The translations under genes and the position numbers were made by a program. A stretch of DNA of 64,000 nucleotides from Lentisphaera araneosa HTCC2155. GTDB lineage: Bacteria > Verrucomicrobiota > Lentisphaeria > Lentisphaerales > Lentisphaeraceae. The DNA lies in the NCBI RefSeq assembly GCF_000170755.1, contig NZ_ABCK01000026.1:1-64000 (forward strand), read 5' to 3'. Positions 19,369 to 54,250 of this stretch are shown piece after piece. How positions within the stretch are numbered: the first letter of the stretch is position 1; each line of letters starts with the position of its first letter. The notes beneath the pieces were generated by a model that was not told the origin of the DNA, made no database searches, and was given only the letters and a program-made list of their open reading frames with translations.

Positions 19369-19998
19369 TTATGGAGTCCAAAGTTGACTTGAGTTATTTG
19401 AGTTATTCCCAATGCTTAATGCTTGATTTCCATCAAGTGATTCTAAGTGACCATCAACGTAAGTAATATTGAGTTTACCGTCATGTCTGGCCATACGTTT
19501 TGTTGCAGTATCTTTTATAACTTTGTTTTCATCTTTTAAGTTTGCAGGCCAAATTACATTGCTTTTATTATAACCATCAATCATGAATAATGTTTTAGAA
19601 GAATGTGTAGATGCCAAACTTTTAGGTACATTAGAGCCTGAAGCAAGAGTTAAATTTTTATTCATAGAATAATTAGTTTCGTAGTTCCATTGGAATGTCA
19701 CACCACTTGGACAATGAAATGGGTGATTATCTGTTTTCAAACCACTCTTAGATAAATAACCAGACTCAAATAGTTGTTTATTCCATTTGATTGACCCGTT
19801 AGTAGACGGGAAAACATATTGATTATTATCATCTGCATACATGAAGTTGGCTAACGTAGCTTGCTTAAGTTTATTTTTACAGCTAGTTCTTATAGCAGAA
19901 TCACGAGCATTACCAAGTACGGGTAAGATTATGCTTGCAAGAATACCAATGATCGCAATGACGACTAACAGTTCAATTAGGCTGAATTTCTTTTTCAT
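19369..19998 (-). CDS. Pseudopilin-like secreted protein (prepilin N-terminus)
   Basis: It has 209 residues. The N-terminus is a type IV pilin/pseudopilin signal ([20 protein letters not shown]), cut by prepilin peptidase and then forming a long helix. The rest is variable, with a Lentisphaera-style C-terminal motif, [13 protein letters not shown], that recurs in all the pseudopilins of this window. It is probably a secretion-system or surface-fibre subunit. It has its own upstream region and no clear operon partner. Confidence 0.85.
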
Positions 19999-28107: not shown

Positions 28108-28908
28108 TTATCTTGAGGCATCCCAGTATGTATCTGAGATATCACTATTGATAAATGCCAATGCACTAGTGCCGTCAGTTTTTATTAAGGTATTTAGGAA
28201 GTTGAACTTTTCTACATGGCCATCGGCCATGAGGTAGTTAGACTTAGAGTTGAGGTGGGGAAGCTTGCCATTGTTATATTTATTATAGTATGACTGGGCA
28301 TATTGAGTTGGTTGCCATCCATTTCCTAAAAGATTCTTTTTGTGTTGATTTTCAACTAAAGTTATTGTCCCAGAGGTATTGCCCATGGCACTGAGCTTTC
28401 TAGATTTTGGTGTGCCACCGTTGGTTTTACCACCGACACCTTGATATTTAAGGTATCCGCTTGTTTCCCCTATTGAACCGCCAATATACATATAAGTCAT
28501 CGAGTAACTACGAGTAGATGTATTTGTATTACCGTCACCATAGTATCTGATTCCAGGATCTGATGCACATGTGTAGGCTTGAGCATAATCATCTCCATAA
28601 ATAGTTTTTGGGAAAGTCGCACCATGTTTTGCTGCGCCTGAAAGTGATTCCCTACCATCATAGCCGGCTAGGTGATCATCCCATGTTACACGCCCTTCGT
28701 AACCATGGTTTGAGGTGGGCATATAAGAATCGTTGTCATCCGTAAACATGATAAAAGAGATGCCCAATTGTTTCATGGTATTTATGCAGGAGGCTGATTT
28801 TGCCGTTTCTCGTGCTTTGCTTAGAGCTGGAAGCAGTAGCGAAGCAAGAATTCCAATAATGGCCACGATTACGAGTAACTCTATGAGAGTAAATTTACTT
28901 TTTTTCAT
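28108..28908 (-). CDS. Pseudopilin-like secreted protein
   Basis: It has 266 residues. The prepilin signal [20 protein letters not shown] is followed by a variable region and the shared C-terminal motif NYLMADGHVEKFN. SYMPTSNHGYEG and WDDHLAGYDGRES resemble the pseudopilins at 30259-31017 and 36391-37173. An AGGA box precedes the start. A TGTATCAA motif lies 58-66 bases upstream, as in two other pseudopilin genes here. The protein is probably exported and assembled, or left in the envelope, by a type II secretion-like machinery not present in this window. Confidence 0.85.
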   Translation of the reverse strand: MKKSKFTLIELLVIVAIIGILASLLLPALSKARETAKSASCINTMKQLGISFIMFTDDNDSYMPTSNHGYEGRVTWDDHLAGYDGRESLSGAAKHGATFPKTIYGDDYAQAYTCASDPGIRYYGDGNTNTSTRSYSMTYMYIGGSIGETSGYLKYQGVGGKTNGGTPKSRKLSAMGNTSGTITLVENQHKKNLLGNGWQPTQYAQSYYNKYNNGKLPHLNSKSNYLMADGHVEKFNFLNTLIKTDGTSALAFINSDISDTYWDASR

Positions 28909-29031: not shown

Positions 29032-29268
29032 TCAGCGTGAAGCATCCCATTTGGACCCACTAAGATCAGAACTTGTGGCCAAAGAGCCATCATCTCTACT
29101 TAAAGATTGGTAAGTGCCCATAGACTCTACATGACCATCGGCCATGAGGAAGTTCGCCTTGGCATCATGTGGTGTGTTAGCTAGATCATCTTGATATTAA
29201 AATTAGATAAGGCGTTTCTCATCTCGCCAACCACTACTTAAAATATTCTCAAGCAAATAATATTCAGT
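29032..29268 (-). pseudogene. Decayed pseudopilin remnant
   Basis: One continuous frame encodes the last third of a pseudopilin. It reads SSGWRDEKRLI, then two in-frame stops (TAA TTT TAA), then DLANTPHDAKANFLMADGHV and finally GSKWDASR and a stop. The closest pattern is the pseudopilin at 30259-31017 (GNGWNDNKRAQTY, NTPHDSRGNFLLTDGHVES). The start and signal are absent, and the fragment directly abuts the stop of the neighbouring pseudopilin. It is a truncated, stop-containing paralogue. Confidence 0.85.
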
Positions 29269-30047
29269 TATTTAAAACTGTCCCATTGAGTGTCAGTGAC
29301 ATCAGATGCGCCGCCAACCGAGCCATTGTTTTTGACTAAAGATTGTACCGGGCTCATGGACTCAACGGAACCATCGGCTTTAAGATAATTGGATTCATTA
29401 TTATGGAGAAGGATGGTTGAATTCATCATGTTTTCGGCAGTGACTCCTCCCCATTCGTATGAAGTTCCCATATTGAGTTTGGCAGGTAATTCAGCATAGA
29501 TAATAGTTTGAGACGTTTGACTGATGTCATCTATACGTTTTGACCAAAACACGGCAGTAACTCCATCCCAACTTTTGAGTCCAAATATACCATTATAGGC
29601 ATTACCTGCAGAAGACGAGTTGTTGTTTTGAGTTGGGTAGTAATTAAGAAGAATACCACCAGTATTTACAGTGGGATCAGATGGACAACGGTACATGGGG
29701 CCGTGATCTGCACCTTCAGGCATATCTTCAGCTCTCATTCCCCACCGTCCATTGACGCCATGGCCTGACTGCATTTGAGCGATACTTAGGTTACGGCTAT
29801 CATATAAGCTTAGGAGATCATCCCAGCTAATGCCAGAAACGCTTTCAATACCCGCAGAGAAGTGCCCATCATTATCATCTTGATAAGAAAAGCTGGCGAT
29901 AGCAAGTTGTTTCAGGTTATTTTTACAGACGGCTTGGTGTGATTTTTTTCTAGCTTTGCCGAGAACGGGAAGTAGCAGCGAGGCCAGTATGCCAATAATC
30001 GCGACGACCACGAGTAGCTCAATGAGGGTGAATTTACTTTTTTGCAT
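29268..30047 (-). CDS. Pseudopilin-like secreted protein
   Basis: It has 259 residues, with the prepilin signal [20 protein letters not shown] and the C-terminal motif [14 protein letters not shown], where the usual His of DGHVES is Ser. It carries [17 protein letters not shown]-like and [10 protein letters not shown] stretches found in the others. The shared upstream motif TGTATCAA, and TGATCTAT 20 bases after it, are present. A decayed paralogue follows directly downstream, so local duplication is evident. Confidence 0.84.
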
Positions 30048-30258: not shown

Positions 30259-31017
30259 TTAATTTCTATTTGGGCTCGCATCCCACATTGTGTTTGAAAT
30301 ATTATTTACGGCTGCGACTGAACCATCAGATTTAATCAGTGTTTGATTAGCACTCAAGGATTCGACGTGGCCATCAGTTAAGAGGAAGTTGCCTCTGCTA
30401 TCATGAGGTGTGTTGCCCTGTTGGTCATTGGAGTTGTAAGTTTGAGCTCGTTTATTATCGTTCCAGCCATTACCCATAATGTTTCCACCGTTATGGAATT
30501 CCATGAGAATTATGGTGTTACTAGCTTTATTTAATTCACTAAAACTTCGAGTGATGTTGCCATGAGACATGCCAAGGAATCTTTTGTTATTATCATTAGT
30601 TCTCATTTCTGTTATGGCATAACTTCTTCCTAGTGCAGTGGTATTACCTCCATATTTCCAAGCGGAATCATCTGAGGCACAGCGATATATGTCAGTGGAC
30701 CCCTCGCCAAAGGTATTACTACTTAACATGGCGGCTGCATGTTGTGCTGTTGTTAGTTGCTCACGACCATCATATCCGGATAAAAAATCATCGTAGGTTT
30801 GTCTGCCACCCCATGCACGGCTAGTAAAAGGTGCTTTGTAATTATTGTCATCGGCATACATGAACATGGTGAGGCCAAGTTGTTTTAAATTACTTTTGCA
30901 CAGTGCTTTTTTACTCTGCTCACGAGCTTTACCTAAAGTTGGAAGTATGAGAGAAGCTAAAATTCCTATTATGGCTACGACCACTAAAAGTTCTATGAGT
31001 GAAAATTTCTTTTTCAT
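30259..31017 (-). CDS. Pseudopilin-like secreted protein
   Basis: It has 252 residues with the prepilin signal [20 protein letters not shown], a variable middle (DDFLSGYDGREQL) and the terminal motif NFLLTDGHVESLS. Length and pattern fit the neighbouring pseudopilins. No TGTATCAA motif was found upstream, unlike its neighbour at 30047. It is the closest visible relative of the decayed copy at 29032-29268. Confidence 0.85.
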   Translation of the reverse strand: MKKKFSLIELLVVVAIIGILASLILPTLGKAREQSKKALCKSNLKQLGLTMFMYADDNNYKAPFTSRAWGGRQTYDDFLSGYDGREQLTTAQHAAAMLSSNTFGEGSTDIYRCASDDSAWKYGGNTTALGRSYAITEMRTNDNNKRFLGMSHGNITRSFSELNKASNTIILMEFHNGGNIMGNGWNDNKRAQTYNSNDQQGNTPHDSRGNFLLTDGHVESLSANQTLIKSDGSVAAVNNISNTMWDASPNRN

Positions 31018-36390: not shown

Positions 36391-37173
36391 ATGAGAAAAA
36401 TAGAGTTTAGAAAGAAGAGCAATCGTAGATTGACTACGCGTTTCACGCTGATTGAAATTTTGGTGGTAGTGGCCATTATAGGAATTTTGGCCAGTTTCTT
36501 GCTGCCAACTTTAAGTAAGGCGCGGAAAAAAGCTAGGATTGCCGTATGCACCAGCAATCAAAAGCAAATAAATTCAGCCCTACTTATGTTTACGGATGAT
36601 AATGATGGCTATGTCCCGAAACCTTCTGGTAATCCTGATGTGAGCTGGGATGATCACCTTTCTGGTTATGATGGCCGTGAGACATTAACAGACGCGCAAA
36701 AAACTGCGCGCTCTCTCGCTAAAAGTACTTTTGGGGACGACTATGGTCAATTATACCGCTGCCCACTTTTTGAGGACACGACTACTGCTAATGTAGAAAT
36801 GTCCTATGCTACCTCACGGTTTACAGCGCCTGAGCCCAATACACAATGGTTCACTGGCCAAGGGGTCATGGGATTTGGTTATGCCGCAAATCTTAGCGAT
36901 GTAACGGTGCCTAATGAATCGATAATGCTTTTTGACTATAACCGTTCAAGTAACTTCACCCGAATGGGCAGAAATGTCGATAATGTAGTTAGAGCGACAG
37001 ATCTTCGAAATTTTGAAACACTACAAAGTGATGGCATGATGCACGACTTCTATGAGGTGAACTATCTTTTTGTCGACGGGCATGTTGAGAGCTTGGACTT
37101 TAACGCAACCTTAGCACCTTATGGTGCTAATTATTGGAGATCTAATGGCAGTATGTGGGATGCGTACAAATAA
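36391..37173 (+). CDS. Pseudopilin-like secreted protein
   Basis: It has 260 residues. A basic N-terminus precedes the prepilin signal [20 protein letters not shown]. The middle carries WDDHLSGYDGRETL and DDYGQLYRCP, shared with the pseudopilin at 28108, and the terminal motif is NYLFVDGHVESLD. The leader is longer than in its relatives (about 20 residues), and an ATG nearer the signal could be the true start. Its upstream leader has a second copy near 51000. Confidence 0.85.
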   Translation: MRKIEFRKKSNRRLTTRFTLIEILVVVAIIGILASFLLPTLSKARKKARIAVCTSNQKQINSALLMFTDDNDGYVPKPSGNPDVSWDDHLSGYDGRETLTDAQKTARSLAKSTFGDDYGQLYRCPLFEDTTTANVEMSYATSRFTAPEPNTQWFTGQGVMGFGYAANLSDVTVPNESIMLFDYNRSSNFTRMGRNVDNVVRATDLRNFETLQSDGMMHDFYEVNYLFVDGHVESLDFNATLAPYGANYWRSNGSMWDAYK

Positions 37174-38137: not shown

Positions 38138-41100
38138 TTACTTATATTCCACATTGAATTCTTGGAAAGCGCTATGCTCACCACCACCCTTGCTGCTAAT
38201 TGGAGATACTTTCCACATGAGCCAACGGAATTCTCCGAGTGATTCACCATCAGTGGCTTTTAGTGAGCTGGCATTGAAGTCACTTCCCTTGAAGGCACGG
38301 GTATCAATCGTTGCTAAAGGCATCCACTTGCTGCTATCCCAGCCTGGGTCTTGATTGGCTGAACTTGCATAGAGGGTGAAGTTTTGAGCCCCACGTCTGC
38401 CCAAGCCACAAGACCAAGTGCTAATGGCTGTTAGAGTTCTCACTTTGCCGAGATCCATTTTATAGGCGGTGTTTTTTGTACCATTGGCAAAAACGGGGCC
38501 ATAGCTGCGGAGAAGTTGACCATCACTTAAGCTTGTGAGGGGGGCGTTATTCGTTTTGATATTCGATGTGAGTGTGAAATGATGAGCCTTTGGGATTTGC
38601 TTAAAGCCTTCGGTGTTTTTGGAACTTTCTAAATCGATCCAAGTCTGCTTTTTGATGAGAGTTTCTTGAGCTTGTTGTTGACGTACAAATTTGATTTTGA
38701 GGGCTTTATTTCCTGCGCTCAGGTATGTTTGCAGCAGTGCTTTAATTGTGGGTGTTGCCTTGCCATTAATCTGCTGAATCACATCGCCTTCTTTGAAACC
38801 ATGACGAGCCGCCTCAGAATTTTTTGGTACCTCAACTAAGATCACGCCACCAACTTCTTTACTTACGCCATAGGCGGAGAACTCTTCGCCAGTTAAGTTT
38901 TGCAGGCTCGCGCCCAAGAATACGGCTAAGGAACTTTCCGTAGGAGAAACTATTTTCTGAGGCTTTTCTTTTGTGGTAACTGTTGGAGATGAAACCTTAG
39001 GCAGTTTTGGCGTGCGAGCGATTTTTTTGAGTGAAGGTTTTTTGACTCCGAATTGATCCATGGGAAAGTTCTTGAAACCAATAGAAAAAGCGGGTGAGTC
39101 TTCTTTGACACGGAAATCCCCCTTGCTTGGATCAATAAATTGTGGATCCCCGAAGAGCGAATTTTTGTCCCAACCTAATGTTTTTGAAGTCGCTTTAACT
39201 GGAGCTTCATTGGCAACATAAAAGAAGTTTTTATCAACTTGGGCAGCATCGGCGTTAGGTCGCTTCATACGTGCGGGACGATGTCGGCCCATGAGGATAT
39301 TGCCGTGAACTTCGTCCCCATTGCCTAGATACCAAACATGGGGGTGCAGACCATTATTTACCATGACATTATTCCATGCATGGCGACGGAAGCCCTCGCG
39401 TAATTTGAGACCTTTTGCAAGGAGCAAGTTATTGTAGATGTTGTAGTTGCTTGAACCATCATCGAGATCGACGTCCCAGCCGTGGTCACAGCGCCAACGG
39501 CTATTGCGAATCACAGAAGTTTTTACCGCATCGAGTAAGGCGAGTTCGGGGAGTTTTTCTGCAGGGGCATTTCTAAGGTGCCAGAAGCGATCGCGTCCCC
39601 AAGAATTGAATGAGCCATGATCATGAGTTTCTAAAACCGTGTCAAAAACGTCGCAGCCTTCGATGAGGTGTCCACCCCAGGTGCCTTCGCTTATATTTAT
39701 ACCTGATCGAGCGCAGTCGTAGATCGAGACATCGCGCACCGTAATGCCCTGTGCCATGGAAATTTGAACCCCAGCAGGTTGCTTTTCAACTGTTCCGATG
39801 CCATGAATGAGGCAATCTTCGACGATTGAGTCGGCGGGGTAGTTATCGGTTTTGGGGCCCGGAGTGAGATCAATTTTTGATAAGTCATTGACTTCTTTGT
39901 ACTCAAAAAGCGGGTTGCGAACTGCTTTGGGGTCGCCGACAAAGCACACTCCACTAGCACCGGCATCGTGAATGTGGCAGCCTTTAACGAGCGTGCGGCG
40001 ATTGTAGTTGTTAACAAAAATCGCATTGCCACCCACTTGATCGAATTCGCAATCAAGAATACTCACATCCTCGGTTCCCGTCAGTAGGAAGGCACCGCCG
40101 CGGTAGATGGCCCAATCCGAGCGCAGTAAGGGTTCTTTACAATCCATGAAAGTTCTTGCGGTGTGACGAAGCGTAAAGCCTTGGAGCTTGATATGCTTTA
40201 CAGGGGCTTTTTGGCTTCCTTGGAATTCGACGAGATGACGAAGGCGTACCACCTCGAGCTTCGCCTTTGCTAAGTCCACGCCGGGAGCAGGTTTGTAGTA
40301 GAGTGTGGAGGTCTTGGCATTGTGGAACCATTCGCCTGGCGCATCGAGTTCCTCGAAAATATTCTCAACCATGCGGTAGTTCTTGTGCATACCCATCTGA
40401 CGATTGTTCTGCCAGCCGCCTTCATAGGTCACTTCACCCTTAGCATCTTTGCCTGTGATACGGTAGTGATAACCGCCCCAGCGGTGAACGTGCATGGCGT
40501 GAATATAGCCACCTGCAGGATCGGCCCACTTGCTAGCACGCTCCTTTGAAAAGGCATCGGCACTATAGCCCTGGTAGGCATCCGTCTTCTTTTTGGCATC
40601 ATAGTTTGGGTAACGCGCCATGCGCTGAGCCTTGCCATTGATGAATACCTGATCAATGGCTAAACTCTCGGGAGTTTGAGCCTGAAAGATGCCGTCTTTA
40701 AAGGCCGTCCATTTGAGATCGAGTTTGACGCCGCCACTCAGGATCGCACCACCTTCATTTTCGGCGCGGTAAACAATGGGGAACTCGGCCGTTCCTGAAT
40801 CCTTGGAAAAAAAAACCAAAGTCTCGGGCAAGTAATAAATGCCGTCGGCAAGCTGTATGCTGACGGCTTGTTTCCCGGCATAGCTGCGAGCGAGGTCGCG
40901 AGCTTTGGCGAGTGATGCAAGGGCTTTGTCTTTGCTCGTGCCTTCGAAAGTGTCATTGCCTTGTGGACTGACAAATAATTCGATTTGATTGCTGCTTGCG
41001 CTCAGGTCTTGATCAAATTTCACTTGGTAAGTTTCGCCAAGTTTTGTCGTGAAGTTAATTTGGTCTTCACTCACTTTAGTAAGTGTCAACCGCTTGCCTT

Positions 41101-43402
41101 GACTATCAGAGATCATTGCATTGCCGATTCCAGGATAGGATAGGCTACATTGACCGCCACTTCTGGATTCAATTGAAAATTCACTTGCTCTGACCTTGTT
41201 CCATTTTGCGGAAATCGCAAAATTACCACGCGCCACTAAGCCATCAAAATGGCCATCTTCCCAAGCTTTTGGTAGGGCAGGGAGAATTTTTATCGTATCC
41301 TCATGGCTCTGCAGAAGCATTTCAGCGACGCCCGCCATAGTGCCGAGGCTACCATCGATTTGGAAAGGGGGATGAAGGGTCCAAAGATTTTGCACGGTGC
41401 GTTCTTTAATAAAGCGTTGGTAGACTTTGTGGGCTTTCTCGCCTTCACCGAGGCGAGCACGACTATTCATGCGATGTGCCAGTGCCCAGCCCGTAGTTTT
41501 ATCGCCACGTAGGTCCAAGGTTTTACTTGCTGCCTGCAACCAGTCTGATTTCTGACTGATGAGTGTGCCCGGGAAAAGGGGGCAAAGGTGCGAGATATGG
41601 CGGTGCTTTTTATCGCCAATATCACTGTAGTTATTTTCCTCGCGGTATTCTTTGATCTGGCCATCGGCACCAATGAGGATGGGGTCGAGCTTGGTAATTT
41701 GTTCGCGGATGGTATCGAGGAAGGGGTCTTCGCTACCTAGTGCGTCAGCGAGTGTGAGCGTGTCGGCAAAACTTTCCCAGACAAAGCCTTGATCGAAGGT
41801 ACAACCAGCGGTGACGTAATATTTTCCACCTTTGAGTTTGCCGGGCATATTTTTGACTTGTTCCGGCTTGGCAAGCTGTTCGGGTGAGGCGGAAGGCTCG
41901 ACGAGAAGTTTATCGCCATGGGGGATCAAAACTTTTGAGTAAAACTTACTCAAGGAGAGCATGGCTGGGTAGGCGACTTCTTCGAGGTATTGCTTATCCT
42001 GAGTAAAGAGATAATAATCCATCAAAAGTTTAGCGGTGAAGCCACCAGTGCCCGGACCGGAATGACCACCGGCACTAGGGATATAATAGGCATTGGCTCC
42101 CGTGCCAATAATCCAACCATTATCACCGCCTTTGGTCACTTGACTGGGGTTGTATTTTTGCACGTAGTCGGTGGCATGTTCTCGTGCGATGGGCAGGTAG
42201 GCCTTGTAAAAATTAGTGTACGATTGGAAGCACTCGGCGAGGTTGGTGCTCATCGACCCCCAGTAATTCATCTGCACATTGATGTTATGCCAAAAGCCTC
42301 CTGACCACGGCGTGTAATAATCCTGACTCCAAGCGCCTTGTAGGTTGGCGGGCAGACTCTTCTCGCGCGAACTGGAAATGAGTAGGTAACGGCCGTACTG
42401 AAACATCAGTTCTTCGAGCCAGTTATTCGTTTTACCCGCTTTATATTTTTCTAAGAGGATGTGTGTGGGGTCATTTGATGGTCTTGAATTAAGATTGACG
42501 GCAACGCGGCCAAATAAGTTCTGATAATCCTTGAGGTGTCTTTCTTTGAGCTGCTCATATCCTCTGTTTTGAGCTGCCTGAATGCGAGCCGAGACCTCAT
42601 TATGAGGAAATTCTTTAGGATTGAGTTTTTTGGCTGAGGTATTGCGGAAAGTATCTTCATGGAGACGGTAATTGGTGCCAGTGGCAATGAGAATAGTGAC
42701 GGCATCCGCCTTGCTGACTTCAATGCTTCCCTGTTTAGCATTAGCCTTGAGCGTGCCGCCCTCGTTTAAGACTTTGATCTGACCGTCAAAATTACAGCTG
42801 AATAAAGCAATGGAACCTTTCAGAGTGAGGAGGTCGTCTTTGGCGCTGATGGAACCGCTGCGTTCCTTGCGTTCGAGGTAGGGGATTTCGGGGCGAATCT
42901 CAAATGAAAGCGCGGCTTTCTTGTCAGCTGTAAGACGAATAACAATCACATTATCGGGGTAGGAGGCAAAATACTCACGCGTGTAGTTGACGCCACGGTA
43001 GTTATAAGCAACATGAGCAATGCCCTCGTTCAAGTTAAGTGAGCGACGGTATTTACTAAACTTATGATGTCTGAAATCAAGCTTGATTTCCGCAAAGCTA
43101 GTCAAACCACCCTTATTATATTTCCCCCTGTTATGGAGCGTCTTATCAGTAATTTGAATTCGTTCTGTATCGGTGCGCCCAAAAATATTGGCCCCAGTGT
43201 AGCCATTGCCAATAGGGTATGACCAACGCTCCCAATCTCGATCATAGGAATTGGGTCTTTTGCTGGATTTTGTTGATTCCCATTTGGTTCTGCCATTATT
43301 GGGCGGAGGATTTAATTCCCAAAGTTCGTAAGTTCTTGCTGTATTATCCCCCCAAGATGAGAAGACTAAACAGAAGCTTAGTAGCGCGATTATTTTATTC
43401 AT
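38138..43402 (-). CDS. GH95 fucosidase-like / beta-helix / PDZ / discoidin-like fusion
   Basis: This secreted 1754-residue protein begins with a signal peptide. Residues ~25-800 match glycoside hydrolase family 95 (1,2-alpha-L-fucosidase and related): WSYPIGNGYTGANIFG, the asparagine pair in FWHNINVQMNYWGS, VEPSASPEQ and KHRHISHLCPLFPG. Residues ~808-1465 form a right-handed beta-helix starting ELFVSPQGNDTFEGTSKDKA, of a type seen in GH141 and related enzymes. A PDZ-like domain follows at ~1487-1580 (VGGVILVEVPKNSEAARHGF and KEGDVIQQINGK). The last ~165 residues look like a discoidin/F5-8 sugar-binding module. Joining two glycan-active units suggests a processive or dual attack on fucose-rich glycan. 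No frameshift is seen. It ends a leftward cluster with sulfatases. Confidence 0.82.
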   Translation of the reverse strand: MNKIIALLSFCLVFSSWGDNTARTYELWELNPPPNNGRTKWESTKSSKRPNSYDRDWERWSYPIGNGYTGANIFGRTDTERIQITDKTLHNRGKYNKGGLTSFAEIKLDFRHHKFSKYRRSLNLNEGIAHVAYNYRGVNYTREYFASYPDNVIVIRLTADKKAALSFEIRPEIPYLERKERSGSISAKDDLLTLKGSIALFSCNFDGQIKVLNEGGTLKANAKQGSIEVSKADAVTILIATGTNYRLHEDTFRNTSAKKLNPKEFPHNEVSARIQAAQNRGYEQLKERHLKDYQNLFGRVAVNLNSRPSNDPTHILLEKYKAGKTNNWLEELMFQYGRYLLISSSREKSLPANLQGAWSQDYYTPWSGGFWHNINVQMNYWGSMSTNLAECFQSYTNFYKAYLPIAREHATDYVQKYNPSQVTKGGDNGWIIGTGANAYYIPSAGGHSGPGTGGFTAKLLMDYYLFTQDKQYLEEVAYPAMLSLSKFYSKVLIPHGDKLLVEPSASPEQLAKPEQVKNMPGKLKGGKYYVTAGCTFDQGFVWESFADTLTLADALGSEDPFLDTIREQITKLDPILIGADGQIKEYREENNYSDIGDKKHRHISHLCPLFPGTLISQKSDWLQAASKTLDLRGDKTTGWALAHRMNSRARLGEGEKAHKVYQRFIKERTVQNLWTLHPPFQIDGSLGTMAGVAEMLLQSHEDTIKILPALPKAWEDGHFDGLVARGNFAISAKWNKVRASEFSIESRSGGQCSLSYPGIGNAMISDSQGKRLTLTKVSEDQINFTTKLGETYQVKFDQDLSASSNQIELFVSPQGNDTFEGTSKDKALASLAKARDLARSYAGKQAVSIQLADGIYYLPETLVFFSKDSGTAEFPIVYRAENEGGAILSGGVKLDLKWTAFKDGIFQAQTPESLAIDQVFINGKAQRMARYPNYDAKKKTDAYQGYSADAFSKERASKWADPAGGYIHAMHVHRWGGYHYRITGKDAKGEVTYEGGWQNNRQMGMHKNYRMVENIFEELDAPGEWFHNAKTSTLYYKPAPGVDLAKAKLEVVRLRHLVEFQGSQKAPVKHIKLQGFTLRHTARTFMDCKEPLLRSDWAIYRGGAFLLTGTEDVSILDCEFDQVGGNAIFVNNYNRRTLVKGCHIHDAGASGVCFVGDPKAVRNPLFEYKEVNDLSKIDLTPGPKTDNYPADSIVEDCLIHGIGTVEKQPAGVQISMAQGITVRDVSIYDCARSGINISEGTWGGHLIEGCDVFDTVLETHDHGSFNSWGRDRFWHLRNAPAEKLPELALLDAVKTSVIRNSRWRCDHGWDVDLDDGSSNYNIYNNLLLAKGLKLREGFRRHAWNNVMVNNGLHPHVWYLGNGDEVHGNILMGRHRPARMKRPNADAAQVDKNFFYVANEAPVKATSKTLGWDKNSLFGDPQFIDPSKGDFRVKEDSPAFSIGFKNFPMDQFGVKKPSLKKIARTPKLPKVSSPTVTTKEKPQKIVSPTESSLAVFLGASLQNLTGEEFSAYGVSKEVGGVILVEVPKNSEAARHGFKEGDVIQQINGKATPTIKALLQTYLSAGNKALKIKFVRQQQAQETLIKKQTWIDLESSKNTEGFKQIPKAHHFTLTSNIKTNNAPLTSLSDGQLLRSYGPVFANGTKNTAYKMDLGKVRTLTAISTWSCGLGRRGAQNFTLYASSANQDPGWDSSKWMPLATIDTRAFKGSDFNASSLKATDGESLGEFRWLMWKVSPISSKGGGEHSAFQEFNVEYK

Positions 43403-43441: not shown

Positions 43442-44959
43442 TTAGCGAGTGGATTTTCCGTTTTGGATTTTCTTTAGACGGGATTCCATCTGCTGAATGC
43501 GTTCGGGAAATTTTTTATACAAATTGTTTCGCTGAGCTAGGTCAGTGGAGAGATCGAATAATAGGGCCGGACCATCAATTGAGTCGCCGTTCCAAATTTG
43601 TTTGAACCAATCGGGTTCGCTAGTAATACCCTTAGGATGGAGGTAGGCCCAATTCTCTTGGCGAAGTCCGAGTTTGCCATTGGAGGCATGGTAAACGAGT
43701 TCTTGGCGTACAGTTTGGTTTGAACGAAGTGTAGCTAGAATATCGAGGCTATCTTCTGCGATGCTGTCTTCGAGCTTGTAATCAATGATCCCCGCAATGG
43801 TGGCAAAGAGGTCAGTTTGAGAAAGTAGTGCATCAATTTCTTTTCCTCCCTTGATTTCACCTTTGGGCCAAGAGGCAATAAAGGGGACGCGGTGACCACC
43901 TTCAAGCAGGTCACGCTTTAGCCCTCGTAGAGGTCCAGAGGGATTGTGACCATGAGTTTGAATGCGTTCACGCATGAAGGGGGCAGGGCCATTATCACTA
44001 GAGATAATTAATAAGGTGTTTTCATAAACTCCAGAATTTTTGAGGGCTTTAACAACTTGTCCGATAGCCTCATCCGTTTGAATGATGAAGTCACCGTAGG
44101 GACCGGCTAAACTCTTTCCTTTATATTTGTCCAAGGGGACAATGGGAGAGTGGGGTGATGTGGGAGCGTACATGAGAAAGAAGGGCTTTTCTTTTTTACT
44201 TTCTTGATCAATAAAGTCAATAGCCTTAGCCGTGATCGTTGGCATGACTTTGTTCAATTGCCATCCTTTTTCACCTGGACCAATCCCGTGAATATAGCCA
44301 CCCCTCATTGTTTGTTGCTTCATGAGTTTTCGTCCGTCAATATTAACGGGCTCGCAAGTTAAACGATCGTTTTCGATGAAGGCATAGGGAGGCATATTGG
44401 GAGCATCATCGCCAAAGTAGTAATCAAATCCAGCTCCGAGAGGACCTCCTTTTATAGGCTTGCTCCAATCAAACATCTCACAGCTTGCCGTACTCGTTCC
44501 TTTGCCAATGATGGATTCTGACGGTTTTCCCCCACCCATCCATGGCCACTCGAAACCGAGATGCCATTTGCCGATGAGTGCAGTATGATAGCCCTTTTCT
44601 TTCAGTATTTTGGGTAGTGTGACGCGATCTTTTTCAATTGCCGATTCTTTCCATGGGTTCAAGCGGCCCGCACGTAGTGATCCTCTCCAGGCATAACGTC
44701 CTGTGAGTAAGGAATAGCGACTGGGGCTACAGACGGTGCTGGGCGCGTGGGCATCGCTCGCCCAGACGCCTTCTTTGGCGAGGGCATCCATGTGCGGAGT
44801 CCGCACTTTGGATTCGGGGTTCAAGAAAGAGACGTCGCCATAGCCTAAATCATCCGTCAGAATAATGACAATATTAGGCTTTTCAGACTGTGCGTTTAAC
44901 TTAGGAAGGAGGGTAAGCACGAAAGCCATACTCAAGATGATTTTTATAAATTTTTTCAT
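43442..44959 (-). CDS. Secreted arylsulfatase-family enzyme
   Basis: It is expected to remove sulfate esters from polysaccharide. It has 505 residues and a signal peptide. The formylglycine signature is CSPSR in STVCSPSRYSLLTGRYAWR, so the Cys-type needs a formylglycine-generating enzyme, which is not in the window. Metal and substrate residues appear in ILTDDLGYGDVSF, GKWHLGFEWPW and SDNGPAPFMRE. The gene lies 39 bases upstream of the GH95 fusion in the same direction, so both probably serve one sulfated, fucose-containing substrate. Confidence 0.9.
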   Translation of the reverse strand: MKKFIKIILSMAFVLTLLPKLNAQSEKPNIVIILTDDLGYGDVSFLNPESKVRTPHMDALAKEGVWASDAHAPSTVCSPSRYSLLTGRYAWRGSLRAGRLNPWKESAIEKDRVTLPKILKEKGYHTALIGKWHLGFEWPWMGGGKPSESIIGKGTSTASCEMFDWSKPIKGGPLGAGFDYYFGDDAPNMPPYAFIENDRLTCEPVNIDGRKLMKQQTMRGGYIHGIGPGEKGWQLNKVMPTITAKAIDFIDQESKKEKPFFLMYAPTSPHSPIVPLDKYKGKSLAGPYGDFIIQTDEAIGQVVKALKNSGVYENTLLIISSDNGPAPFMRERIQTHGHNPSGPLRGLKRDLLEGGHRVPFIASWPKGEIKGGKEIDALLSQTDLFATIAGIIDYKLEDSIAEDSLDILATLRSNQTVRQELVYHASNGKLGLRQENWAYLHPKGITSEPDWFKQIWNGDSIDGPALLFDLSTDLAQRNNLYKKFPERIQQMESRLKKIQNGKSTR

Positions 44960-45294: not shown

Positions 45295-47169
45295 TCATTG
45301 TGATTTTGTTTTTTTCTTAGTCACTCGAAGTGCTTTGAGTGATGTAGGCTTATTGTTTGTTGGCTTATTGATCTCTGGGTAAGAGACGAGGAAATTATTT
45401 TCATCAATGAGGCTAATGACGTAATGACTTGTTCCTTTTGGAAGTGTGGCGCTTAACTTCGAGCCGGGGAGCAATTTGGCAGGCGTTCGAAACCATTCTT
45501 CTGCAGGCTCGCCACCATTAAGGGTATAGAGCAAATTGGCTCGCAGCACCCTAGCTCCATTTTCCTGATAAGTACATTCTACGATGGAGCCCTTCTGGCT
45601 ATGCGAGAGAACGGTGGGAACTTTTTCTTTGTCCGGCAGATCATTTTTGTAATGGGGATTATAATAGGGATAGCTGGCCTTCATCCCCTCTAGAGTTTTA
45701 GTAAGTTTCTGATTCATTGCTTGCGCTTTTTCCGGCATGATCTTTGCCAGGTTTTTCGATTCTTCAATATCACCGCGGACTTGCTTGCCCTCGCGGGTTT
45801 CGTAGAGTTGTTAGAGCTCTAGTTCGGGTGCGTGTTTATTGTTGATGTGGTCATAATTACGGATCAGTTTATAATCGCCGATACGGATTGTACTTTCGAG
45901 TGCAACGCTATTGGGGAAATGCCAAAGCATGGTATCGCGAACGGAGCCATCCTGCTCTTGGACTAGCAATGGGTCCGCAGGATTTTTTGCGAGTAGCGTG
46001 GAAATGTCGCAGCCATCGAAGATTTTATCCTTTGGTTTCTGAGTTCCCGTCAAGGAAAGAATGGTGGGGTAAAAATCGAGTCCGTTAATCATGACATCGG
46101 ATTGCTGTTTTGGAGTAATTCCAGGGCCGGTGATGATGAGTGGTACGCGGACCCCGCCCTCCATGGCCGAAATTTTGCCGCGATGCAGGGGGTAGTTATC
46201 GGTGATAATCTCGCCAGGGATTTTTTCCATGCCACCGTTATCGGAGGTAAAAATGATATAGGTGTTTTCGCTTAGCATGTGCCCCGGCCAACGCGGATCC
46301 TCGGTGGTGTCGAGATAATCGAAGAGCTTGCCGACGTAATAGTCCAGCTCCTCAACCATGGCACAGTAAAAGGGATTGGTCTGTCCCTCTCCCTTCCACT
46401 CTTTGGGATTTTCAGGTAATTCGACGCCCAGTTTATCACAATATTTTTTTAGGAGCCGTTCACTACGTGTTTGAACTGGGGTGTGAACGAGAAAAGTGGC
46501 GTAATAGAGAAAGAAGGCCTTTTCCTTGTTCTCCCGTACAAAAGTGAGGGCATCTTCGCTATTCTGGTGGGTGCAGAAGCCCTTTTCGTCAAGTCGATAG
46601 GGGTCGTCGGCTTGATTTGTGGCAAAGCCCGTTAAGCGATGAGGTTTCATGGCTTTAAGAATTCCATGGTTATTACGGCTCCAATCAAAACCGTGATCCT
46701 GTGGCTGTGGGTAGCCACCATAAACCTTAGACAAATGCCATTTGCCACTATGGCCGGTGGTGTAGCCATTGTCTCGCAGTGCTTGTGCAAGTGTGTAGGT
46801 TTCGATAGGCATACTTGATCTATACCAAGGAGGCATCATGCGATGCAGAGTCTTGTGGTAGGGAGCTGGAGGAGTTCCTCCGGAGACATGTGTTTGCTGA
46901 GCCCGCGCGGGATGGATTCCACTGAGGATCGCTGCTCGTGACGGGGCACAGCTCGGTGCGGGTGAATAGCCTTGCCAGAACTGGATACCCTTTTTTGCCA
47001 ATTTATCAATGTTGGGGGTCTCCATTGGCGAGGGCGCATCGATGTCGTAGCATTTAACATCTTGCCAGCCGAGGTCGTCGGTCAAGAGCAGGATGACATT
47101 CGGTTTTTCAGGGCGACTCGCAAAGCAGCAAGTCATGATCATTATGTTAATAAGTAATAGATTATTCAT
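45295..47169 (-). pseudogene. Sulfatase interrupted by an in-frame stop
   Basis: The gene encodes a sulfatase with signal peptide, ACAPSR-type formylglycine motif (SPAPSCAPSRAAILSG), LLTDDLGWQDVKC, GHSGKWHLSKVYGG and SDNGGMEKIPGE. A TAA at 45811-45813 stops it after ELEL. The frame continues without shift as QLYETREGKQVRGDIEESKN and on to a normal C-terminus ending at 45295. The stop arises in CTCTAACAACTCTAC, which looks like a 9-base duplication; without it the sequence would read ELELYETREG. About 452 of 624 codons precede the stop, so a truncated but possibly active enzyme cannot be excluded. It could also be a sequencing error. Confidence 0.85.
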
Positions 47170-49190: not shown

Positions 49191-49304
49191 AGGATACTTT
49201 TTGAGATTTTTCCAAAAAAAAACAATTTTACTGTATCAAGCTCTTATGCTGCGGGTTCACTATCATAGGAACATAAGTTTTTGAAATTTAATATTGAGGT
49301 TTCT

Positions 49305-50024
49305 ATGAGAATTTTAGGTGGCAAAAATAATGAAAAGAAAAGAGTTATCTTAAATAAATCTTTTACTTTAATTGAATTACTCGTGGTGGTAGCGATTATC
49401 GGGATATTGGCCAGCTTACTCTTGCCCGTTTTAGGAAAAGCCCGCAAAAAAGCAAAGCAAACAGTATGCAAGAGCCAACTTAAGCAAATTCATTTGGCGA
49501 TGACTATGTACGAGCTCGACAATGATCAGTTCTTACCAGAGGTTCGTGGTAATACTCCTAATGCGCATTCACGACCATGGTATTGGACTTTAGCACCTTA
49601 TTTAAGCATAGACCGAGAGGAGACGGGCCCCATGCGCGAGGTTGAGGTAAGTATTGATAGCAATATCTTTAAATGTCCTAGTAATGATTCACTTAATGTC
49701 CCTGTGTATGGAACTAGTACAAATATTACTGGTTATGCAATGCCTCAATGGGCAGGTTGGGGAGGCCAAAGTGCCCTGTATTCTCCGATTAAAACCACTA
49801 ATGTTTCGGAGCCTTCACATGCAATGCTTCTTGGAGAAACAGACCTTAAGTATTATTTAAATGGAGGAGATGCTAATCTGACAAATAGTCTCTATCATGA
49901 TGGACTTAATAACCGTTTATTCATTGATGGGCATGTCGGGCAAGGTTTTCAAAATCAAGGTTTTATTGAAGTTCCAATAAGAACTCCATACTACTTTAGC
50001 TGGTCTAAAAATTCAGGATATTGA
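49305..50024 (+). CDS. Pseudopilin-like secreted protein
   Basis: It has about 239 residues from the preferred ATG at 49305, which follows a GAGG box; the frame opens earlier at a TTG (49281). The prepilin signal is [20 protein letters not shown]. The C-terminal motif is [13 protein letters not shown], a divergent form of the DGHVES motif. A TGTATCAA box lies 66 bases upstream at 49232-49239, as in two other pseudopilin genes. A SASA-type esterase gene follows in the same direction after 75 bases. Confidence 0.84.
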
Positions 50025-51550: not shown

Positions 51551-52153
51551 ATGTCAAAAGAATACAACACGAGACAAACGCTGTTATGTAAACTCATTGA
51601 CAGCAATGATGAGAAGTCGTGGGATGATTTTGTTAAATATTATGAAGGCTACATCTATGTTGTCATCTGTAATTTCAATGTTGATGAGGATACTGCCGAA
51701 GATTTGTTGCAGGATGTGCTGTTAAAAATCTGGAAATCTTTGCCCAAATATGAGTATCGCAAAGGAGAATGTACTTTTAGAACTTGGTTATGCTTAGTGA
51801 TCAAAAGCATTGTCTTTAATCACTTTCGAAAAAGATCTACAAAAAACCAAAATCAAAATATTAGTCACGAGGAATTACTCAATAACTTGGAATCCATTAC
51901 TGAACCCGAAATTGACAAAATTGCCGAACTCGAATGGAAAAGCTATATCTCAAGTATGGCCTGGGAGAATATCAAAAGTGAATTTAATGCAAGTACAATT
52001 GAAGTTTTTGAACTTTCTTTAGAGCAAGATGATAATGCGCTCATCGCAAAAAAATTCGCTATTAGCGTGTCCTCCGTTCGCGTCTATAAATCTCGTGTTC
52101 GAAAAGTTTTATTAAGAGAAATGTCTCGCCTCAACGAAGAATTGGGTGGGTAA
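51551..52153 (+). CDS. ECF-type RNA polymerase sigma factor
   Basis: It has 200 residues. Region 2 is clear (NVDEDTAEDLLQDVLLKIWK then RTWLCLVIKSIVFNHFRKRS), and region 4 shows an HTH (AKKFAISVSSVRVYKSRVRK). There is no long N-terminal region 1, so it is an extracytoplasmic-function type. The kinase-like gene starts 9 bases after its stop. This pairing is common in Planctomycetes and Lentisphaerae, where the kinase-like partner is thought to control the sigma factor. Confidence 0.88.
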   Translation: MSKEYNTRQTLLCKLIDSNDEKSWDDFVKYYEGYIYVVICNFNVDEDTAEDLLQDVLLKIWKSLPKYEYRKGECTFRTWLCLVIKSIVFNHFRKRSTKNQNQNISHEELLNNLESITEPEIDKIAELEWKSYISSMAWENIKSEFNASTIEVFELSLEQDDNALIAKKFAISVSSVRVYKSRVRKVLLREMSRLNEELGG

Positions 52154-52162
52154 AATTTTCTT

Positions 52163-54250
52163 ATGAGCAAAAGGGTGAAGTCATTCGACAAAAAGCTCGT
52201 CGGTTTTTTTGATGATCTTAAAGACTTAGACCCAGTCCCTCTTTTAGATATGATTTCCACCATTGAAGATCGTTATTGTGATTTTGAATACATTGATGAA
52301 GGTGGCTTGAAACTCATCCAAACTTGCAGAGATCTTCAAACGGGTCGTACTGTCGCCATGGCCAGCCTCAAGAATAAAGCCCGTGACAATCAAAAAGAAG
52401 CTTTTTTGAAAGAAGCCAGGCTCACGGCGGCCTTACAGCACCCCAATATCATTCCACTCTACGATCTGGGCCTTAAAGATAAACAGCCATGGTTCACCAT
52501 GAAGCTTGTATCTGGAACCTCTTTAGAAAAGTTGATCTCGCAAGTCAAAGCAGGCGAATCTCAACAAGCCGAGGATCTCAATATCCGACTAGATATCTTT
52601 ATTAAAGTTTGCGATGCCGTAGCCTACGCTCATTCACGAGGTATCCTCCACCTCGACATAAAACCCGATAATATCCAAATCAGTGAATATGGCGACGTGC
52701 TTTTATGTGACTGGGGCTTAGCCAAAGTCATGGCCGCGGAATGTGATGAAGAACTTTTAGAGTGCTACTCCTTCAACCCAAAAGATATTGATTTAACCCT
52801 CGATGGCTTAGTTAAGGGAACGCCTTGCTATATGGCACCTGAACAAACATCCCTATCCAAGTCCAAAAAGGGCATTTATACCGATATCTTTTCTTTAGGC
52901 TGCGTCTTATACAAAATCCTTACTTTCGAGAAGCCCTTTGGTGGAAGTAATGTAGCTGAAATTATGCAAAATACAGTGAGTGGAAACTACCGCAAAGCTT
53001 CCGAAATCAATAGCGATATCCCCCCTTCCTTAGAGGCTGTTTGCATAAAAGCCATGGAAGTCGACCCCGAAAAACGCTATTTAAATGTAGCTAGCCTTCA
53101 AAAAGAAATTTTAAATTATCGCAATGGCTTTGCCACCAAAGCCGAAAATGCACCCTTAATTAAAATTATAAAGCTCTGGTTAATACGCCACAAAACTTTA
53201 AGCTTTGCGGCGATTATAATCCTCGCCATTAGTCTTTTCACTTCTTGGTTTGCAGTCAATAACCTCAAGCTCGAAAAAATCAATGCCCTGCAAAAAGCCG
53301 AAAAGTCAGAACTCGAAGCATCTAAACTAAAACTCGAAAATGAATTCCACAAAAAATTCAATAAAGAGTCTGCCCCACGATTTTTTAAAAGAGCTCAAAG
53401 TGCCTTCAGTTCTTATAACTTTGAGGATGCACTCAATTTTGTCGATAGTGCGGTTCAACTCGACCCCGCTTTGATAGATGCTTGGGAACTCAAGGGGCTT
53501 CTGCATATTATTCATGAGCAATTTGGCGCAGCTCTTAAATCCCTCGAGAAGAGTCAATCAAAAGAACTTTTATATCAATTAGCAAAGGATTACTATTTGA
53601 TAAAAAAGGATGATACCCAAGCTCTAAGTCTTCCGGATTTTCTGCAATTATACCAACGTTCCTTAGATCAAAAAATCTACTATTTAACTGGCGGTATTGC
53701 GCATCGCAAGTCAGAATCTAGTCTTCCTATTCAAGAGCGGATTGACTTATGTAAGCAAGTTATCCTACTGCACAATAAAAAAAATATTGACCGGCGTTTC
53801 AAGGGAAGTGTGAAAATGAACTTTCATTATGACTCCACGAGTAAACATTTAGACTTATCCAATAACCCTTGGATACGCACTGCGCTTATCCTCCAGCACT
53901 TCCCTGCCCATAGTGCCGATTTCTCTAATACAGGCATCAAAAATTTTAGTTGCTTTAAAAAACAGCCTCTACGCTCTTTAAACGTCAGTTTCAGTGCAAT
54001 TGTTGGACTTAATAGCTTACATAATCTCGGTCTAATTGAGCTTAATATTTCTCACACGGGCATTTCTAACTTACATAAATTAAGAGAGATGTCACTAGGT
54101 ATTTTAGACCTCAGTCATTCCGCGGTAAGAACTACTCATACTTTAAAGGAACTCACTACTCTGGAAAAAATCTTTATACATCAAGGACAATTTTCCGATA
54201 TCGAAGTTCAAGAACTGAAATCAAAGTTTGAAGTCATTATAAAACCCTAA
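52163..54250 (+). CDS. Membrane kinase-like protein with TPR and leucine-rich-like repeats
   Basis: It has 695 residues. A Hanks-type kinase domain spans ~37-300: the catalytic loop is HLDIKPDN, the metal motif is CDWGLAK, and the APE motif is MAPEQ. The N-lobe lysine position (normally VAxK) reads VAMASL, so the lysine is Ala, and the glycine loop is poor. It may be a pseudokinase or use another lysine nearby. One membrane helix follows at ~345-365, a TPR-like helical stretch (FEDALNFVDSAVQLDPALID) at ~405-470, and leucine-rich-like repeats in the last ~130 residues. It follows the sigma gene closely and is probably its sensor partner. Confidence 0.86.
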   Translation: MSKRVKSFDKKLVGFFDDLKDLDPVPLLDMISTIEDRYCDFEYIDEGGLKLIQTCRDLQTGRTVAMASLKNKARDNQKEAFLKEARLTAALQHPNIIPLYDLGLKDKQPWFTMKLVSGTSLEKLISQVKAGESQQAEDLNIRLDIFIKVCDAVAYAHSRGILHLDIKPDNIQISEYGDVLLCDWGLAKVMAAECDEELLECYSFNPKDIDLTLDGLVKGTPCYMAPEQTSLSKSKKGIYTDIFSLGCVLYKILTFEKPFGGSNVAEIMQNTVSGNYRKASEINSDIPPSLEAVCIKAMEVDPEKRYLNVASLQKEILNYRNGFATKAENAPLIKIIKLWLIRHKTLSFAAIIILAISLFTSWFAVNNLKLEKINALQKAEKSELEASKLKLENEFHKKFNKESAPRFFKRAQSAFSSYNFEDALNFVDSAVQLDPALIDAWELKGLLHIIHEQFGAALKSLEKSQSKELLYQLAKDYYLIKKDDTQALSLPDFLQLYQRSLDQKIYYLTGGIAHRKSESSLPIQERIDLCKQVILLHNKKNIDRRFKGSVKMNFHYDSTSKHLDLSNNPWIRTALILQHFPAHSADFSNTGIKNFSCFKKQPLRSLNVSFSAIVGLNSLHNLGLIELNISHTGISNLHKLREMSLGILDLSHSAVRTTHTLKELTTLEKIFIHQGQFSDIEVQELKSKFEVIIKP

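Follow-up and report, generated by a model that had tools for sequence, protein, structure and literature searches.

A predicted secreted fusion of a GH95 domain and a GH141-type beta-helix, with PDZ and CBM32-like modules, in Lentisphaera araneosa

A gene of Lentisphaera araneosa encodes a 1754-residue protein that is read here, with a probability of roughly 70%, as a secreted exo/endo two-enzyme fusion for the breakdown of sulfated fucan. The slow breakdown of fucoidan matters for marine carbon storage and, to our knowledge, little is known about the joint use of endo- and exo-acting enzymes by bacteria that attack this polysaccharide. The open reading frame starts with ATG and occupies exactly positions 38138–43402 on the minus strand of the window, which is the whole 64,000-nucleotide stretch of DNA that was analysed; all features of the protein given below lie on this strand. 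In order, the product comprises a predicted signal peptide, a GH95 enzyme, a GH141-type beta-helix, a PDZ domain and a C-terminal (CT) CBM32-like domain. The initial annotation had described a multi-domain protein of this length with GH95, GH141-related beta-helix, PDZ-like and discoidin-like domains, and all four domain calls proved correct when compared with Pfam and DegP/HtrA profiles and an AlphaFold2 model. The model, which covers residues 796–1754 and was prepared with an input from 59 relatives, has a mean pLDDT of 89.1 and a pTM of 0.80. Based on inspection of the sequence, residues ~1–18 (43349–43402) form a predicted signal peptide, the hydrophobic core of which extends up to approximately SSWG, and the N-termini of the relatives at L038 and L039 are alike. 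The individual parts belong to known families. The combination, the overlooked PDZ domain, a Trp-bearing GH95 clade and a shared CT module are new.

The second half of the protein contains a right-handed beta-helix of the GH141 type (residues 805–1467, 39002–40990), which was assigned from sequence and structure matches and is orthologous to Wf141_3 of Wenyingzhuangia fucanilytica. The Pfam Beta_helix family matches the protein with an E-value of 1.6e-8, and in a sequence search of solved structures the first half matched GH95 enzymes and the second matched 9rx2 and the GH141 enzyme BT_1002. The modelled helix is matched to BT_1002 (PDB 5MQP) by Foldseek with an E-value of 2.8e-27, and the VIA comparison of these two structures gives a Z of 38.5 over 507 residues (rmsd of 2.9), relative to a next-best Z of 28.5. 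The GH141 beta-helix fold is thereby common to both over its whole length. In contrast, the sequence identity is ~19% and BT_1002, which acts on rhamnogalacturonan-II (PMC10154630), has no GH95, PDZ or CT domain. Two acidic motifs are invariant in 59 sequences: the first contains D1261 (39620–39622, in HDHGSFNSWGRDR), a candidate catalytic acid, and the second, DLDDG, contains D1314/D1315 (39458–39463), which by profile alignment is a candidate equivalent of D564 in BT_1002. In a profile comparison with helices of the Wf141_2/9rx2 type, only the second Asp motif was aligned, to within one residue, and when the C-terminal half of the helix was used for a profile search, no counterparts of BT_1002 D523/D564 could be mapped. 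The full-length alignment to a GH141 enzyme and the invariant acidic motifs speak against a helix that lacks any catalytic pocket. As a separate observation, 9rx2, titled only as a parallel beta-helix repeat protein, matches a Wf141_2-like neighbour in Mariniflexile (L108:12844-15006) with 1390 bits over 715 residues and is thereby a very close relative of it. The protein of 9rx2 is likely a fucan-active GH141 enzyme; a literature search found no paper that names 9RX2.

Four GH141 endo-fucanases, including Wf141_3, which was placed in this family by dbCAN/CUPP, are reported from the fucoidan cluster of W. fucanilytica (PMC12786026). The published Wf141_3 construct spans L23–K687, as encoded by primers for LDIYVSPNG (L23) and GVSEELKK (K687), and showed endo-fucanase activity in a preparation that was only partly purified; detailed characterisation is given only for Wf141_1 and Wf141_2 (PMC12786026). 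The native gene was recovered with the published forward primer, which has one exact match in 397 Flavobacteriaceae genomes. It encodes 790 residues (strain CZ1127, L142:6907-9279), with L23 and K687 as published and a PDZ domain at ~697–790. The neighbouring 726-residue gene (Wf141_2, L142:2214-4394) starts at Q29 with the Wf141_2 primer peptide, which confirms the W. fucanilytica locus, and the Wf141_3 primer motifs are found at identical residue numbers in helix-PDZ proteins of Formosa, Mariniflexile and others. From the positions of L23 and K687 and the 790-residue native length, the published construct corresponds to the helix alone, so that the study of this endo-fucanase did not include the PDZ domain of the native protein; the text of PMC12786026 makes no mention of a PDZ domain.

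The helix-PDZ part of the window protein shares 63% identity with Wf141_3 over 782 residues. Because of this identity, and because the helix part of Wf141_3 has been shown to be active, the helix is predicted to be an endo-acting alpha-L-fucanase of the Wf141_3 branch of GH141 that would cut within the sulfated fucan chain. The earlier suggestion of a fucoidan-degrading enzyme gains support from the same identity to a published endo-fucanase (PMC12786026), from which the activity of the window protein itself is inferred. Both proteins contain the HDHGSFNSWGRDR and DLDDG motifs and both have sulfatase and fucosidase neighbourhoods, whereas Wf141_3 has neither the GH95 half nor the C-terminal CBM32-like domain. 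In W. fucanilytica, the neighbours of Wf141_3 include two sulfatases, GH29, GH43 and GH95, the last of which is 41% identical to the GH95 half of the window protein. The natural substrate could be a sulfated fucose polymer other than brown-algal fucoidan, such as a diatom, invertebrate or bacterial exopolysaccharide; Lentisphaera are bacteria of the open ocean and, judged by record titles, the relatives are spread over Planctomycetota, Verrucomicrobiota and lake and sediment metagenomes without brown algae. This alternative is given somewhat less than even odds, as the closest characterised relative acts on brown-algal fucoidans (PMC12786026) and relatives are present in the known fucoidan degraders Formosa algae and Mariniflexile AS56.

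The first half of the protein (residues ~24–797) consists of a GH95 N-terminal domain (residues 102–246, 42665–43099; PF14498, E-value of 1.5e-37), a catalytic domain (residues 281–696, 41315–42562; PF22124, E-value of 1.4e-120), which also matches GH95 chains in the PDB, and a C-terminal domain (residues 698–794, 41021–41311; PF21307, E-value of 8.9e-28) that ends ~10 residues before the helix. The respective Pfam scores of 130.3, 403.4 and 97.1 bits compare with cut-offs near 27. In an alignment with AfcA (2EAD) and other GH95 structures, all four active-site residues are present and conserved: the catalytic Asn pair N373/N375 (42278–42286; AfcA N421/N423), the general acid E508 (41879–41881; AfcA E566) and the conserved Asp D683 (41354–41356; AfcA D766). 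This half would be of the inverting exo-alpha-L-fucosidase type and would take off fucose residues, modified or not, at the termini of side branches or at newly formed ends, a substrate assigned by inference. The GH95 gene of the W. fucanilytica cluster (L142:15783-18488) was seen to encode Asp at the position of AfcA N421, the first catalytic Asn, and may be a mechanistic variant.

The GH95 domains and catalytic residues are as in the alpha-1,2-fucosidases AfcA from Bifidobacterium bifidum and FucOB from Akkermansia. In contrast to these enzymes, the GH95 half of the window protein is fused to an endo-enzyme and has a Trp residue, W371 (42290–42292), in the −1 subsite at the position of AfcA His419. 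This His residue lies two residues before the first Asn, forms part of the wall of the pocket that receives the methyl group of fucose and is the proposed, not proven, specificity residue of AfcA-type GH95 fucosidases; in the GH95 L-galactosidase BACOVA_03438 the same position is held by Thr370 (PMC4491172). His is absent from this position in the window protein and its whole clade, and the resulting WHNIN pattern is found in all 17 GH95 sequences of the clade with a readable motif, down to ~43% identity. More distant GH95 genes of the same survey have His or Thr where this clade has Trp. The Trp residue marks a GH95 clade for which the exact sugar is uncertain, and its replacement of the fucosidase His counts against the proposed fucan-degrading fusion, since the sugar could differ. 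The conservation of Trp throughout the clade would agree with a GH95 half that is something other than a plain alpha-L-fucosidase and that acts on terminal sugars of another kind or on modified ones, such as fucose bearing sulfate or acetyl groups. This proposal is considered tentatively, as the catalytic residues are intact and a Trp residue could leave the pocket that His419 lines in AfcA (PMC4491172) hydrophobic.

The helix-PDZ-CT region was used as a query against 84,980 species genomes, which gave 535 confirmed relatives; 79 loci were kept from the best 80, and these belong to Verrucomicrobiota, Planctomycetota, Bacteroidota, one gammaproteobacterium and others. The orthologue from Lentisphaera marina (L039:9939-15200) has the same full fusion, with ~80% identity over residues 3–1753. 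The fused GH95-helix form is found in five cases: the window, L. marina, two Opitutia MAGs and one uncultured bacterium. An origin of the fusion in faulty annotation or assembly of two adjacent genes is extremely improbable: the two halves are separate in one congener (G001), but the GH95-helix junction is in frame and free of stops, and the occurrence of the same fusion in the independent genomes of L. marina (G002), the Opitutia MAGs and the uncultured bacterium rules out an assembly error. The G001 locus has the two halves as separate genes in a single run, ordered sulfatase, sulfatase, GH95, GDSL-type esterase, helix-PDZ. An interpretation of this locus as a fused gene carrying an insertion and an in-frame stop was rejected, as the open reading frames show separate genes with the esterase between them.

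All five fused copies fall in one eight-member clade (support of 98) of the helix tree, together with three unfused copies. In two of these three (L060, L038), a GH95 gene is adjacent or belongs to the same gene run, and the contig of the third ends too soon to show whether one is present. At least three changes are required on the tree, which makes repeated fusion indistinguishable from fusion followed by splitting. The loci of a further 12 relatives likewise contain genes of the GH95 family, some being only distantly related to the GH95 half described here. A natural endo/exo fusion in a clade that also has both enzymes as separate neighbouring genes points to functional coupling. With a spacing of ~10 residues between the catalytic domains, and with the two enzymes encoded together, either fused or side by side, the fusion probably links the trimming of a chain to the cutting of that same chain. 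A literature search for GH95 and GH141 as multimodular proteins returned no on-target title.

Following the helix and a linker of 20–30 residues that is modelled with low confidence, residues 1491–1580 (38663–38932) form an HtrA-type PDZ domain, assigned from sequence and from the model. The Pfam PDZ_2 score of 21.7 bits is below the cut-off of 27, while the DegP/HtrA model TIGR02037 matches residues 1495–1617 with an E-value of 2.2e-8 and the region after the helix in the structural model matches HtrA PDZ domains. In Wf141_3, the PDZ domain scores 36.4 bits for PDZ_6, above the cut-off of 27. The domain is similar to those of DegP/HtrA in sequence and fold; in contrast to DegP/HtrA, the protease is absent and the carrier is a polysaccharide-cutting enzyme. 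The initial annotation regarded a PDZ-like module between catalytic and binding parts as unusual. This view does not hold for the Wf141_3-type branch of GH141, of which the PDZ domain is a constant part and not an oddity of the fusion: it follows the helix in 79 of 79 close relatives (from the best 80 of 535 confirmed matches), at an offset that varies by less than 20 residues, although the query included the PDZ domain and so favoured full-length matches, which overstates the PDZ frequency among distant relatives. One distant example without the domain, judged by alignment range, is L033.

At the positions equivalent to the HtrA carboxylate loop, W (94%), L (70%), G (88%) and A (83%) are conserved, and the domain has an FSA[YF]G motif in which S, A and G are invariant. 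No member of this PDZ subfamily was found on proteins other than the helix among the loci of the relatives, and in a search of 60 relative genomes the remaining matches were 28–38% identical and lay in open reading frames of 281–526 residues. The PDZ domain would be a conserved non-catalytic module that is dispensable for the reported endo-fucanase activity of Wf141_3 and that most likely mediates a protein contact, for example with a partner enzyme or surface protein whose chain end it would bind. An alternative role, as a ligand-free structural cap or folding aid for the helix, would explain why the domain is always in one place with little variation in offset, and the lower identity of the PDZ domain than of the helix between species (60–67% relative to 87–88%) is in line with it. 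This role is nonetheless less likely than not, as Wf141_3 is active without the PDZ domain, the linker (AlphaFold2 model residues 679–695) is probably flexible, and both the carboxylate-loop positions and the FSA[YF]G motif are conserved. A protein contact could be taken further, to a docking module: secreted fucan-degrading enzymes of the branch would use PDZ-peptide contacts to bring in sulfatases, fucosidases or a surface protein and assemble a protein-scaffolded fucan-degrading complex, with the CT domain as the fucan-binding module shared by all members; this extension is speculative and rather improbable. Literature searches found no bacterial polysaccharide-degrading system that uses PDZ docking, no paper that joins GH141 with a PDZ domain and no on-target title for PDZ domains with glycoside hydrolases.

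The CT domain (residues 1587–1754, 38141–38644) has the CBM32/F5_8-type-C fold. When folded alone, it has a pLDDT of 89.9 and matches discoidin/CBM32 (F5_8-type-C) folds, and in the model of residues 796–1754 it also matches CBM32-type domains. Pfam F5_F8_type_C gives no match in the window protein, and the homologue in L046 scores 14.1 relative to a cut-off of 28.2. The domain is thus similar in fold to CBM32, F5_8-type-C and fucolectin-type domains but differs from them in being only ~10–16% identical, below Pfam thresholds and carried by fucan-associated enzymes. It is present in 47 of the 79 helix relatives (from the best 80 of 535 confirmed matches) and, without the helix, has homologues at 46–52% identity on GH29 fucosidases (L046, L056, L062) and S1 sulfatases (L067, L063). 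Because the domain is common to three enzyme classes (GH29, S1 sulfatases and GH141) with one substrate type, its distribution suggests a candidate fucan-binding module, which would hold the enzyme on the polysaccharide. Other fusions of the helix-PDZ-CT core were also observed, with C-terminal (L066, L068, L080) or N-terminal (L094, L124) extensions; these parts are esterase-like (in L080, a sialate-esterase-type domain) or are N-terminal regions of 400–590 residues without Pfam matches.

The fusion gene lies 39 bases downstream of an S1-type sulfatase on the same strand (43442–44959, minus strand), the orthologue of which adjoins the locus in both congeners (83% and 78%). The loci of 10 relatives yielded 65 neighbour proteins, which include 18 sulfatases, 10 GH29, 6 GH43 and 4 GH95 proteins. 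No transporter or fucose-catabolism genes were identified within the 64-kb window, which counts against the proposed fucan-degrading role. A further sulfatase gene (45295–47169, minus strand) contains a single in-frame stop after residue 452; its L. marina relative (L039:1-1038) is continuous there, and the stop may reflect either a recent loss or an error in sequencing. Six pseudopilin-like genes of the N-terminal methylation type (DUF1559-like) are located among the sulfatase genes of the window (19369–19998, 28108–28908, 29268–30047, 30259–31017, 36391–37173 and 49281–50024), and the helix loci of both congeners are likewise flanked by genes of this sort. Finally, a gene for a 200-residue protein precedes one for a Ser/Thr protein kinase with TPR-like repeats (51551–54250, plus strand), and this pair occurs twice in L040 beside a helix-PDZ-CT gene.
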